Positions 43,958 through 49,213 of a stretch of DNA of 64,000 bases are shown here, piece by piece; positions within the stretch are counted from its first letter, which is position 1, and each line of letters opens with the position of its first letter. The position numbers were made by a program, and so were the translations under genes. The stretch is taken from NCBI GenBank assembly GCA_025526995.1, contig JAHLKG010000016.1, forward strand, positions 1 through 64,000, given 5' to 3'. The notes beneath the pieces are model-generated. The model saw nothing but the letters and a program-made list of their open reading frames with translations, did not search any database and had not been told where the DNA came from. The DNA is from Powellomyces hirtus. Lineage: Eukaryota > Chytridiomycota > Chytridiomycetes > Spizellomycetales > Powellomycetaceae.

Positions 43958-45046
43958 TTCAAGGGACGTGTCGGAGTGCCAATGCCTTGTGAATCCTCTG
44001 GAAAAGTAAACTGACGATGAGGAGCAACGTCTTGGGGTTAACCCAGAGAACGAGTGAGCCGTGTGAGATGTGTAAGATACTAGGCGTTTGGCTTAGACTT
44101 CTGTAGCGGAATGGAATGGAAAGAAGGAGGAGACGGTTCGGCGGTTGCAAAGAACGTCATGGGCTGCGTAATGCCAGATTAAGTTCATGGGAGGGCTAGA
44201 TTAAGGCCATGGAAATGCTAGATTAAGGCTTGCGACGACGAACCCCAAGCCTAAATGTAGGCAGGACAGTTGATCACGTTATCAATGCTAGATCTGGTCC
44301 GGTACTACTAGTGTAACAGAACGTGACACATGGCGCCGTTGCACGACGATGATGATGATGATGACAGCCGCCATCGCATGGCCTACTTTAAGCCTTGGAC
44401 CGAGTTGAACGAGTCTTGAATGAAGTCGTCCGACGCCATATGTATTTATTATCGATACCTGCTGGGTTGGTTGTCTGTCGGAAGTGGATAGATGCGTCAC
44501 AGCCAGCAATGTTTGTGACAGGGCTCTGCTTATACGGGTGAGTGGGTATGGTGACAACAGACTCGCATGCGCAGATGGGGATTCTTCATGGATCCCGCGT
44601 CCAAACACCGCTTCAAGATGAGTTACTCGTGTGCGCGGGAGAGTTGCACAGGGATGGCCGGAAACGTTCTCTTCAATGCAATGCGGCAGAGGCAGCGACA
44701 TGGCGGGGGGCAGGTCTCCCGCGCTGAGCCGCTTTTGGCTGGCCACCTGCGTCCTTGCTTTGCCTTTCAATGGTTGGTCGGGTTTCCTCGGTAAAATCTG
44801 CTAAATCCCAGCATTCCCCATCAAAGGCCTATTCTTGCCGTCGTTCTTGCTGGCCCGCAACCTGATAGCAAGCAGCGTTGTCCTATAACCTTTTTTTTTC
44901 TCTGTATATTTTGTAACCTACGCTTGACTTACCACTCGTCGCTTGTCAACACTGTTGCATAGTCCTGCCAGGCATCCGGCCTGCCCCGTGTACTCGAGTC
45001 AAGCCGTCACCCACACTAACCCAACACTCGTCACAACAATACCGCA
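43958..45046. other. Divergent promoter region MFS / ACS
   Basis: No gene recognised. Small features: a 4-fold ATG/GAT trinucleotide repeat near 44348-44361 and repeated GCTAGATTAAGG words near 44190 and 44218. Confidence 0.5.
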
Positions 45047-47529
45047 ATGTCAATCGGCTCCGCCAACGAAACGACAGCGGATCCGATCCCTATGTTCCAT
45101 CCGCACGCACCTCGTCCTGGAGACCCCGTCCCGCACATCCCCTCCATGGCGCACTACCGTGCAATGTACGAGGAAAGCGTCACCAAACCCGATGTTTTCT
45201 TTGGCAAGCTGGCGCAGGACTTGCTGTCCTGGCACAAGCCTTTCAACCAGGTCTCCCATGGCAACTTTCATGAGGGAAACGTCTCTTGGTTCGTGGACGG
45301 ACAAGTCAATGCGTGCTACAACTGCGTAGATCGCCATGCCTTGGTCAACCCCAACAAAGTCGCAATCATCTGGGAGGCCGACGAAATGGACCATCATCGG
45401 TCGATCACATATGGAGAGGTTCTAGCGGAAGTGTCACGACTGGCCAACGTTCTGCTTAAATATGGTGTTCGCAGAGGACATGCTGTGGCCATTTACATGC
45501 CGATGGTATGTACCCTATCCATGGATGTTTTCTGATGTTGTACTTAGGCCAAAACTTACGGTTGTGTGACCTGCCAGGTACCGGAAGCAGTATACGCAAT
45601 GCTTGCCTGCGCCAGAATTGGAGCTGTACACAGGTATGCATCACGACGCATAAAGCAAAGGTTCCTTTCAGTCTGGAATACTCAAAAGAGTTTGTCTCTC
45701 GCACATAGTGTTGTGTTTGCAGGCTTCAGTGCAGATGCATTGCGCGACCGAATGCTTGATGCCAAGTGCAGACTCCTGATAACGGCTGATCAGGGCAAGC
45801 GCGGAGGAAAGACGATCCAATTGAAGAACATTGCAGATGAAGCATTGGCCGAATGCCCAGCTGTGCACACGGTCATCGTGTTCCAGAGAACGAATGACAA
45901 GTCTGTACCATTCCATCCTCCGAGAGATATTTGGTGGCATGAGGAAACCAGCAACCAGCGACCGTACTGCCCGTGTACCCCGATGAACTCGGAAGACCCA
46001 TTATTCATGCTTTACACAAGCGGCAGGTCCGTTACATACTCCCTTTACTAGTCTTTGTAAGATCCCTCACTTATCTGCCAACTCGTTCCCAGTACTGGAA
46101 AGCCAAAGGGAGTGTTACACACCACGGCTGGTTACCTCCTGGGAGCAACTGCAACAACAAAGTACATCTTTGATCTTCACGAGGGGGATGTTCACGCATG
46201 CATGGCTGATGTTGGATGGATTACCGGGCACTCTTACATCGTTTACGGCCCCTTATCCAACGGCGCAACCACTGTCGTCTTTGAAAGCATCCCCACCTAT
46301 CCCAACGCTGGACGTTACTGGGATCTTGTCGACAAGCACAAAGTCACTTCATTCTACACGGCACCCACCGCCATCCGAGCATTGCGAAGGCTGGGCGACG
46401 ACTTTGTGAAGCCTTACGACTTGTCGTCTCTTCGTATTCTCGGCTCGGTTGGAGAACCCATCAACCCCGACGCGTGGATGTGGTACCACTCCGTTGTTGG
46501 ACGCAGTCGCTGCGCGATCGTAGACACGTACTGGCAAACCGAGACGGGTTCTATCATTATCACACACCGCTCCCTGGATGCACGCCTACTAAACCCGGTT
46601 CGGCAACGCTGCCCTTTTTTGGTGTTGATGTCGCTGTCCTGGATCCCCAGACTGGCGAGGAACTCAAAGGCAACGGAGTCACTGGTGTGCTGGCTGTCAG
46701 AAACAGTTTCCCCAGCATCGCCAGAACTATCTACGACAACCATGCGAGGTACATGGACACCTACCTGCTCCCGTACAAGGGATTCTACTTCTCTGGAGAT
46801 GGAGTATCCCGAGACGAAGATGGTTATTACTGGGTCCGCGGACGAGTCGAGTAAGTGCCGAGTTTTACAGATATCTGTCATATCAAGAGAGTATTAACTG
46901 TTCCATTGTTGGGATGTCGTTTCTGTTCTTGCGCCATCAGTGGTAGGTTCCATTCTTTATTCGAATCAACACAAGACTATATTATCAGATTGCTCACATC
47001 ACGTTCTACTCCCCTAGATGTCATCAATGTTGCTGGACATCGTCTGAGCACGGCAGAAATCGAGTCGGCTCTCATCAAGCATCCTGCTTGCGCCGAAGCC
47101 GCCGTAGTCGGCGTTCCGGACGATTTGACTGGGTACGACGGCGGCGACTTTAACAATCCATCTCAGATCCATCTGTCTATCATCGTACTCATTCCTGTCC
47201 CATCCTACAGACAAGCTATCGTGTGCTTTTGCACGCTCAAGTCCAGCGACCTCGACAACAAGACACTATCCGCCGCATTGACCGCCCAGGTCCGAGCCCA
47301 CATTGGACCCTTTGCGACCCCGAAACGCATCATCATCACCCCCGACCTACCCAAGACTCGCAGCGGCAAAATCATGCGCCGCATCCTCCGCAAAGTTGCC
47401 GGCCGTGAGGTCGTGCAGGAAGACCTGCAGGACGACGCCATCCTGAAAATCAAACTGGGCGACCTTTCGACTCTCGCGGATCCGGCTGTGGTTGCACTCT
47501 TGATCAACTCTGTTGCTGACAGATCGTAA
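45047..47529 (+). CDS. Acetyl-coenzyme A synthetase (with a 2-nt exon and one frame break)
   Basis: Makes acetyl-CoA from acetate, ATP and CoA through acetyl-AMP. Exons: 45047-45505, 45578-45633, 45709-46026, 46093-46850, 46941-46942, 47018-47132 and 47211-47529. Family motifs: [20 protein letters not shown] near the start, the AMP-binding loop [15 protein letters not shown] formed across a splice, [51 protein letters not shown] (hinge), and catalytic lysine TRSGKIMRR near the C-terminus. GRVDDVIN is recovered only if TG at 46941-46942 is a separate exon. After [11 protein letters not shown] the frame must drop two bases in the CACACA at 46561-46566 to continue as [19 protein letters not shown]. 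With that correction length is about 674 aa, normal for the family. Either the gene is damaged or the sequence has an error. It would feed the gluconeogenic route that uses PEPCK. Confidence 0.9.
46941..46942 (+). other. 2-nucleotide microexon of the ACS gene
   Basis: Upstream exon ends ...CGAGTCGA before GTAAGT (46851). The sequence CATCAG|TG|GTAGGT places two bases between an acceptor and a donor. The next exon begins ATGTCATC after CCTAG (47017). GA+TG+ATGTC reads GAT GAT GTC (DDV), the conserved motif; skipping TG breaks the frame. Confidence 0.75.
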
Positions 47530-49213
47530 AAATTTCCCTTGTCGTCTTTCCTTCATTCCACAATATAGGCTCTCCGTCTCTTTCCCCCTTTCGTCATATG
47601 AAGAGAAATGTACAGCATTTGGAAAGTGACCTTTGCTGTTGAGTTCTTTACTTATTATTAAACAAAACATTGATCTGAAAACTATTTTGTGTTCCTGCCC
47701 GTGGGACTGAAGGACTTGATTCAGCGCATTGTGACAAGATCATAGTATGTGCAGATATCTACGTTCTCAAAGCTGGCGCAGCGATTGCCCAAACTCCTGA
47801 GCCGCACGCTTCGTGTGCCCCACAAGGTGTTGCGTACATAGATTCGTCACGTTGACCCAGGCCAGTGAGAAGGAGCATGGCATCTAGCCCAACTCTGCAA
47901 ATCCGTTGTGCTCCGTTGTTAGATGGAGAGTCAGAATGTTGATGCTTCAGGAAGAATCGGCGTCGTAGGGTCCTGCCTCGGATGACCGCCTGCTCTTCAG
48001 TTCAAGCGCTTCGAGGGGGATGTTTCATGCCATGCCAAGGGAAGGTGAGGCGAAGTTTGAACCGTCTTTGCACCAGGTGCACCATCCCAACACGTGAAGC
48101 ACTTTCCCATTGTGGGCTTTGACGGGCGTCAGTGTTGCGGGTATGGCGTCGTTGACCAGCAACCGGCCGCCGTTCCCGCGTCCTCGCGAAAAATGCGCTA
48201 CATATCCATCAAGATAATCTGAAGGAATTGATGGCTAGTGTCGTGGACCCACGTCTGAACAAAGTTTCATCCCAGCGCTCCGAGATAATTGACACCACCG
48301 CCGGTCCCTCGTCCGACAAACAACATTCGCGGGTCCAGCGTCACCCAACAGCAGCGGTCTTCTTCACCGATTCGCGGAGAGTAGTAGTTGCAGGAGCAGC
48401 CGAGGAGCGCGATAATGACAACCGAGCTGTCGAAGAACCTGTTGTGTTAGAGAGAAACGGCGGGGACGGCGAAGGCTAGGAATGGAGTAATTTACCAGTA
48501 GAGACATGGTTTGTGGGTAACGAACAAGCAGAGAAGGAAGGAGAGAAGAAAGAAATTTGAGGCTTGGGGGAATGGTATTAGGAATAAAAATCTGTCAAAA
48601 CGCGGACCGAGTCAGTAAAAAGCGCCCACAAGGTTGGGAATGTGAACCACAGAGACAGCCGTCTTACATGAAATACTGCATGCAAAACATCTTGTTCGAC
48701 AATATGGGAAAGCGGAGGTTGGCAGGCTATCGGGCGGAGTGCAAACCAAGTGTTCTCTCAATTGCTTCTGACACACAGACTCCTTGAATCAGCTTGGAGC
48801 ATTCCGCAGTGGGGAGTAGGACGTCCGTGAGTAGAGTGCGTGGCTATTGGCGGTGAAAGGGTTCTGTTCTGGATGAGTTTGGCGGTGACTCGGCCGGCCC
48901 ATTGACCTGAGCAGGTTTCAAAGCAAGCTTGCTCAAAAAGCATGAAATTTTACGAGCGCGTCTCGAAGGTCGCCACAGCGCAGCGTGCTGTCAATTCCTG
49001 CATACTTGCCCTTGCCGCCTCATGACATAAAACTGCCGACAGACCAGGTAGCCATAACTTGTTTTTGAAAGGTGGACGACGGGTTTACGGTCCGGATGGT
49101 CACCATGTAATACACCAGTTGTGAAATTTGTATATGTATAATGTGTTCAAAGCTCATTTTATTTGTGTAATATCGAAAGGAAATCAAAAGGGCGGGGGCC
49201 ATGTAGAACAGCG
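47530..49213. other. Intergenic, no intact gene
   Basis: About 1.7 kb. A minus-strand stretch at 48030-48220 reads RLLVNDAIPATLTPV, faintly like the C-terminus of histidine acid phosphatases (VRVLVND-type), but stops and frame changes surround it. I do not call a gene. An 83-codon plus ORF at 48228-48479 is unsupported. Confidence 0.4.

Follow-up and report, generated by a model that had tools for sequence, protein, structure and literature searches.

A predicted two-base exon at the hinge of an acetyl-CoA synthetase gene in the chytrid fungus Powellomyces hirtus

Based on our analysis of the sequence, we propose that the acetyl-CoA synthetase (ACS) gene of Powellomyces hirtus contains an internal exon of only two bases. 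The dinucleotide TG at positions 46941-46942 of the forward strand of the window, by which we mean the whole 64,000-nucleotide stretch of contig JAHLKG010000016.1 that was analysed, is very probably a constitutive exon that completes the codons of the enzyme hinge. It supplies base 3 of the codon for the first hinge Asp together with base 1 of the next Asp codon, and we infer that it is included in the mRNA. Three lines of evidence make a two-base exon the best reading: an enumeration of splice solutions, the divergence between strains, and the errors that different gene models make here.

The gene occupies positions 45047-47529 on the forward strand. Exon 1 (45047-45505) extends from the ATG to ...YMPM, exon 2 (45578-45633) has GT-AG flanks and matches the two public P. 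hirtus models, P0001 and P0002, and exon 3 (45709-46026) matches positions 138-250 of the profile TIGR02188. Exon 4 (46093-46850) ends with GRV followed by GA, the first Asp codon being split after GA; its end sequence, ...GGACGAGTCGA, has its last base at 46850 (GTCGA) and is followed by GTAAGT. Intron 4 (46851-46940) is 90 nt long, runs from GTAAGT to CATCAG and lies at GA/TG (the slash marks the intron), and intron 5 (46943-47017) is 75 nt long, runs from GTAGGT to CCCTAG and lies at GATG/AT; if retained, intron 5 is in frame and open. Exon 6 (47018-47132), which starts ATGTCATCAATGTTGC (ATGTCATCAATG...; ATGTCATC), belongs to the C-terminal domain, and exon 7 (47211-47529) runs to the TAA stop. 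Positions 3-627 of TIGR02188 are covered exon by exon, save 136-137, in this profile match. The whole-protein cut-off of 724.95 bits is reached by no single ACS exon; it is the full-length match over the exons that assigns the predicted protein to the ACS family. Its closest protein relatives are two P. hirtus proteins at 95% identity, one named acetate---CoA ligase and the other hypothetical, and the window protein is identical to P0002 across the first 435 amino acids, the stretch that corresponds to exons 1-4 up to a frame slip described below. The original prediction had recognised an acetyl-CoA synthetase gene in a fungal host; it was right on both counts, the host being a chytrid.

The layout claimed for the hinge is likewise in place: the exon ends at 46850 before GTAAGT, CATCAG/TG/GTAGGT lies at 46935-46948, the introns measure 90 and 75 nt, and GA+TG+ATGTC reads GAT GAT GTC, giving a 13-residue hinge sequence. 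When introns are enumerated with starts at GT or GC in 46780-47029, ends at AG in 46800-47059 and a length of at least 20 nt, this sequence is found in no one-intron product and in exactly one two-intron product, that of the pair around TG, which is the only solution found. The nucleotide target, too, is given by no one-intron split, whatever the boundary. Sixteen single-intron readings keep the downstream frame open, none of them with the 13-residue hinge sequence. The dinucleotide has AG before it and GT after it, each part of a complete GT...AG intron, and it is needed for both the frame and the motif, which no ordinary splice alternative gives; with two coding bases between AG and GT, it differs from zero-nucleotide recursive splicing. 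How readily would such a site arise by chance? We made 5000 dinucleotide shuffles from the 167 nt at 46851-47017. AGNNGT flanked on each side by an intron of 50 nt or more turns up in 29% of them and so is not rare as such, AGYGGT, which is needed for D-D, in 3.0%, and YAG/YG/GTRNG in 0.2%. For the site overall we estimate a chance of 0.002-0.03.

The motif restored by TG is a conserved one. Among the best 120 of the 7999 ACS relatives scored, 115 carry GR[VLIM]DD[VI], and GRVDDVINV is the reading in P0003-P0005, which come from Thoreauomyces, Fimicolochytrium and Gaertneriomyces. To call the hinge invariant, as had been done, is slightly too strong, in that P0001, P0002, P0029, P0027 and P0111 depart from the pattern; the first three are the models from Powellomyces and Spizellomyces that we take up below. 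P0111 reads GRDDVINV. The hinge of P0027, from Batrachochytrium salamandrivorans, reads GRLDGNYVINV, possibly a splice-model error at a GATG/AT intron. The two masked hinge residues fall at 517-518 of the solved chains 1pg3 and 2p2f (equal-length match of 1-44 to 497-540), which we take to be the Salmonella enzyme. Provided that the micro-exon is spliced in, GRxDD would align to the hinge Asp of the solved enzymes, and PMC4176424 gives Asp-517 of the Salmonella enzyme as its equivalent.

Splice sites were scored with a rough model derived from 31 mechanically chosen introns of the window. We use it loosely, since at least one training intron is surely false (47350-47195 on the minus strand, overlying the ACS gene) and the donor of ACS intron 3, at 4.0 bits, falls under all 31. 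By this measure the donor of intron 4 reaches 10.0 bits and that of intron 5 reaches 7.9 bits, or 9.2 bits in the context that arises once intron 4 is removed. The acceptor at 46940 is low (4.1 bits, the 19th percentile of the 31 introns), and those of ACS introns 1 and 2 are slightly lower still, at 3.8 and 3.7 bits. Intron 4 has no CTNAY branch motif; its branch-like TTAAC lies 43 nt from the end, farther from the acceptor than the CT-type sites of introns 1, 3, 5 and 6, of which the CTCAC of intron 5 lies 21 nt from the end. The branch pattern finds nothing in intron 2 either. A single intron of 138 nt (46851-46988) deserves attention here, as its acceptor scores 3.5 bits, close to 46940, its ends are canonical GT-AG and the frame of its product stays open, with a hinge nine residues longer. 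We consider it very unlikely that this is the true structure: it would swap the hinge Asp for Glu and lengthen the loop at a place where nearly all listed relatives have DD, the sole branch-like site within 60 nt of the acceptor is TTTAT, and neither P. hirtus model uses 46988. The junction strings predicted for the different products are GTCGATGATGTCATC for inclusion of the micro-exon, GTCGAATGTCATC for its skipping, GTCGATGGTAGGT for retention of intron 5 and GTCGAATTGCTCAC for use of acceptor 46988.

What do the public gene models reveal about the two-base exon? Both P. hirtus models found, P0001 and P0002, miss it, in different ways. P0002 (DFJ77DRAFT_512463), which is the model of this very gene, jumps from GVSRDED to DVINV (...SRDEDDVINV) and loses GYYWVRGRV, a reading that corresponds to one of the sixteen single introns with an open downstream frame, 46823-47017, whose donor scores 0.17 bits, under all 31 training introns (lowest 5.18). 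P0001 comes from another assembly and, as its scattered residue differences and the lack of a frame slip indicate, apparently from another strain; in this model intron 4 is spliced, the protein resumes after GRVD with the reading from 46941, and intron 5 is kept as a 25-amino-acid insert. A third model, P0029 of Spizellomyces 'palustris' (a cluster of three sequences), stops at GRVE, an end that would fit GA/GTAA or GA/GTGA read into the donor. Strains P. hirtus CBS 809.83 and Spizellomyces palustris CBS 455.65 are reported as sequenced in PMC6572847, and P0001 and P0029 presumably derive from that work. At the level of protein models P0001 and P0029 fit the micro-exon, and any conservation beyond P. 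hirtus would be read from such models; no Spizellomyces-named C-terminal ACS protein occurs among the 120 matches listed in a search for a split model. An unseen two-base exon would explain, as one cause, three failed models in two genera.

P0001 could also be taken at face value, with intron 4 spliced, intron 5 kept and the 25-residue hinge insert belonging to the main form of the enzyme. The 75 nt are indeed in frame and open both in the window and in P0001, and P0001 is annotated in this manner. However, the insert is present in none of the other 119 listed relatives, and an intron at GATG/AT is common among the ORFs of relatives. A direct test is offered by the comparison of P0001 with the window, in which 3 of the 25 insert residues differ, compared with only 5 of the other 671 (Fisher p=0.002, on a small count); the insert thus appears to diverge as expected of an intron, and we regard its retention in the main form as exceedingly improbable.

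The frame slip upstream is a reason to keep a sequence error or a decaying copy in mind. Inside exon 4, on the forward strand, a CACACAC run at 46561-46567 bears a two-base slip, unmentioned in the original prediction, in this assembly and in P0002, which carries the slipped frame and works round the slip with an unlikely intron, whereas P0001 reads through without it. The slip is most simply, for a CA run, an assembly error or a strain-specific or local variant, and the hinge is untouched by it. A genome error near the micro-exon had been named in advance as a ground for abandoning the two-base exon; such an error may exist at this upstream site, and the protein evidence points away from one at the micro-exon itself. 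Might two bases nevertheless have been lost from the assembly just before 46851, the true gene having one intron of about 167 nt at GATG/AT? That exon 4 already has one two-base slip, and that GATG/AT is a common intron position among relatives, would agree with such a loss. Against it, P0001, with its scattered differences and no slip, resumes after GRVD with the reading from 46941 onward, and P0029, which belongs to a different genus, likewise ends at GRVE and not at GRVDG, both being evidence at the protein level; moreover, GATG/GT would have made a normal gene model simple. We attach next to no weight to this loss of bases.

The same slip could be read as the mark of a decaying pseudogene whose splice layout is no longer under selection, a view that is compatible with a two-base exon. 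Decay seems to us very unlikely, given that the frame of P0001 is intact at the slip, that the compared residues differ at only 5 of 671 and that no other gene among the best genome candidates scored fits TIGR02188 equally well, the summed score being about 817 bits here versus about 520 for the gene on contig C4. A paralogue on contig C4 of the P. hirtus genome encodes RTDDIINTAGHR uninterrupted. The genome also contains runs of AMP-binding domains, mostly in long open frames, at L002, L003, L006 and L007 (G000:C1:2099442-2113957), with further runs at L004 and L005 (G000:C4:1544158-1557879). These runs on C1 and C4 resemble peptide synthetases of the multi-module type, in this case from a chytrid.

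How could two introns be excised from either side of a pair of bases? We suggest that the spliceosome would recognise each short intron across the intron, and that introns 4 and 5 would be removed in turn, not together, because only two bases separate the CAG acceptor from the GTAGGT donor, which makes simultaneous binding of both hardly feasible. We lean towards intron 4 leaving first, for which the rise of the intron 5 donor context from 7.9 to 9.2 bits is a weak hint. The P. hirtus genome holds three U1 loci and six FF-domain matches at two places, the latter of the kind found in Prp40-like proteins; these loci show only that the expected splicing parts are present. Recognition of short introns across the intron, with PRP40 as a bridge, is described for yeast (PMC8378409), and since short introns can be recognised in this way, a tiny exon would be a lesser obstacle. 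The original prediction had called two-base exons extremely rare and hard for the splicing machinery, and had raised a recursive or stepwise mechanism, which is plausible. The difficulty is smaller than exon definition suggests if recognition proceeds intron by intron, as that yeast work describes, and the claim of rarity has to be tempered by the two-base and other ultra-short exons reported elsewhere (PMC4674806, PMC8831610, PMC12940212).

The intron positions of relatives offer a view of how the arrangement may have originated. Unspliced ORFs in the protein collection were used as markers of intron position, their fungal origin being judged from similarity. Among the 120 listed relatives of exon 4, 92 have the DD hinge, 19 have GRVDG followed by unrelated sequence, which is the expected reading of GATG/GT, and 9 are uninformative; GRVE followed by unrelated sequence is seen in 0 of these 120. 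The hinge of the 120 listed C-terminal relatives is uninterrupted in 54, absent by pattern in 34 and broken before DVINV in 32. If 8 ORFs that simply begin with the hinge (MD or VD) are set aside, 24 remain, in which the residue before D is L, I, V, T or A in 19 cases, S in 4 (ambiguous) and H in 1; the first five residues are those expected of xxA G/AT, with the acceptor at the intron 5 position. P0253 with P0156 and P0262 with P0193 are pairs that lie on contigs of matching length, and each pair therefore seems to show both sides of one intron. Intron 5 therefore looks old, as the ORFs of relatives meet an intron at GATG/AT from either side. Among the four ORFs with S is P0141, whose sequence GRVEYVFNFNNSDVINV may fit a 24-nt intron at GA/TGAT, the position of intron 4. 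Both P0141 and P0171 contain at the hinge a seeming intron of about 24-30 nt, open in frame, and P0141 has a similar one at LTG/QAI as well; these are possible ultra-short introns.

In other organisms GA/TG and GATG/AT each seem to be found without the other; in P. hirtus both appear to be present. The arrangement could have arisen from an old intron at GATG/AT when a second was inserted, probably 2 nt upstream at GA/TG, with two bases left between them. We rejected an introner origin: in a genome search that passes over very common words, neither intron 4 plus TG nor intron 5 has another match at E<=1. For structured RNA, Rfam yields nothing at gathering score in 44800-47700. Nelson and Syed (PMC12940212) describe an alternative route for the Fusarium one-base exon, namely base loss and then use of a cryptic exon, and a comparable course is possible in the P. 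hirtus ACS gene. A more far-reaching scenario, which we put forward tentatively and hold to be rather doubtful as a whole, is that both sites, each used alone in relatives (GATG/AT in many, GA/TGAT apparently in P0141), are occupied together in the lineage of Powellomyces and Spizellomyces, with the result that a constitutive two-base exon was kept across genera within a hinge codon, its splicing being strictly ordered. Failure of the second step would then produce the open 25-residue hinge insert, and the order of splicing could tune the amount of active enzyme.

What are the implications of an exon of this size? If RNA confirms it, a two-base exon would exist in a primary-metabolism gene of an early-diverging fungus. 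It would provide a natural test of how little sequence can separate two introns, and would illustrate cleanly a possible origin in which two neighbouring intron positions become occupied together. There is also a practical side, as both P. hirtus models that we found misread the hinge, and that of a related genus seems to be cut short at this point.

One-nucleotide exons have been published for Arabidopsis, other plants and Fusarium (PMC4674806, PMC8831610, PMC12940212), and exons of 2-5 bases are cited for Arabidopsis, Drosophila and humans (PMC12940212). Among the papers listed in our searches, from which subscription papers were mostly absent, none reports a two-base exon for a chytrid or an ACS gene. 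As far as our searches show, the TG of P. hirtus would add a new lineage and a new gene to those known to have ultra-short exons, and would not be a new kind of exon. The nearest counterpart is the one-nucleotide exon of Fusarium CYP621A (PMC12940212), which, as here, lies in a conserved motif of a fungal enzyme gene, was missed by gene models and was deduced from phase and motif; it differs in that it is a single base in a P450 gene and is confirmed by SRA reads, whereas that of P. hirtus has two bases, belongs to an ACS gene of a chytrid and is predicted from DNA. In Arabidopsis APC11, and in the APC11 and VPS55 genes of plants, an ultra-short exon of one nucleotide also restores the frame (PMC4674806, PMC8831610). 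For the APC11 exon, intron definition and the removal of the introns one after another have been proposed (PMC4674806), but there the base lies within 422 nt of a plant gene and reporter constructs were tested, while the P. hirtus introns measure 90 and 75 nt. Recursive splice sites, or ratchet points, resemble the P. hirtus site in that acceptor and donor nearly touch and stepwise removal is implied; as described in PMC8605326 they are juxtaposed sites in long introns, whereas the P. hirtus introns are short and leave two coding bases between them. The Trichoderma virens Xlr2 microexon (PMC11121469) is a fungal microexon too, with a functional role, but it acts as a regulated switch, whereas constitutive inclusion would be expected of the two-base exon in P. 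hirtus.
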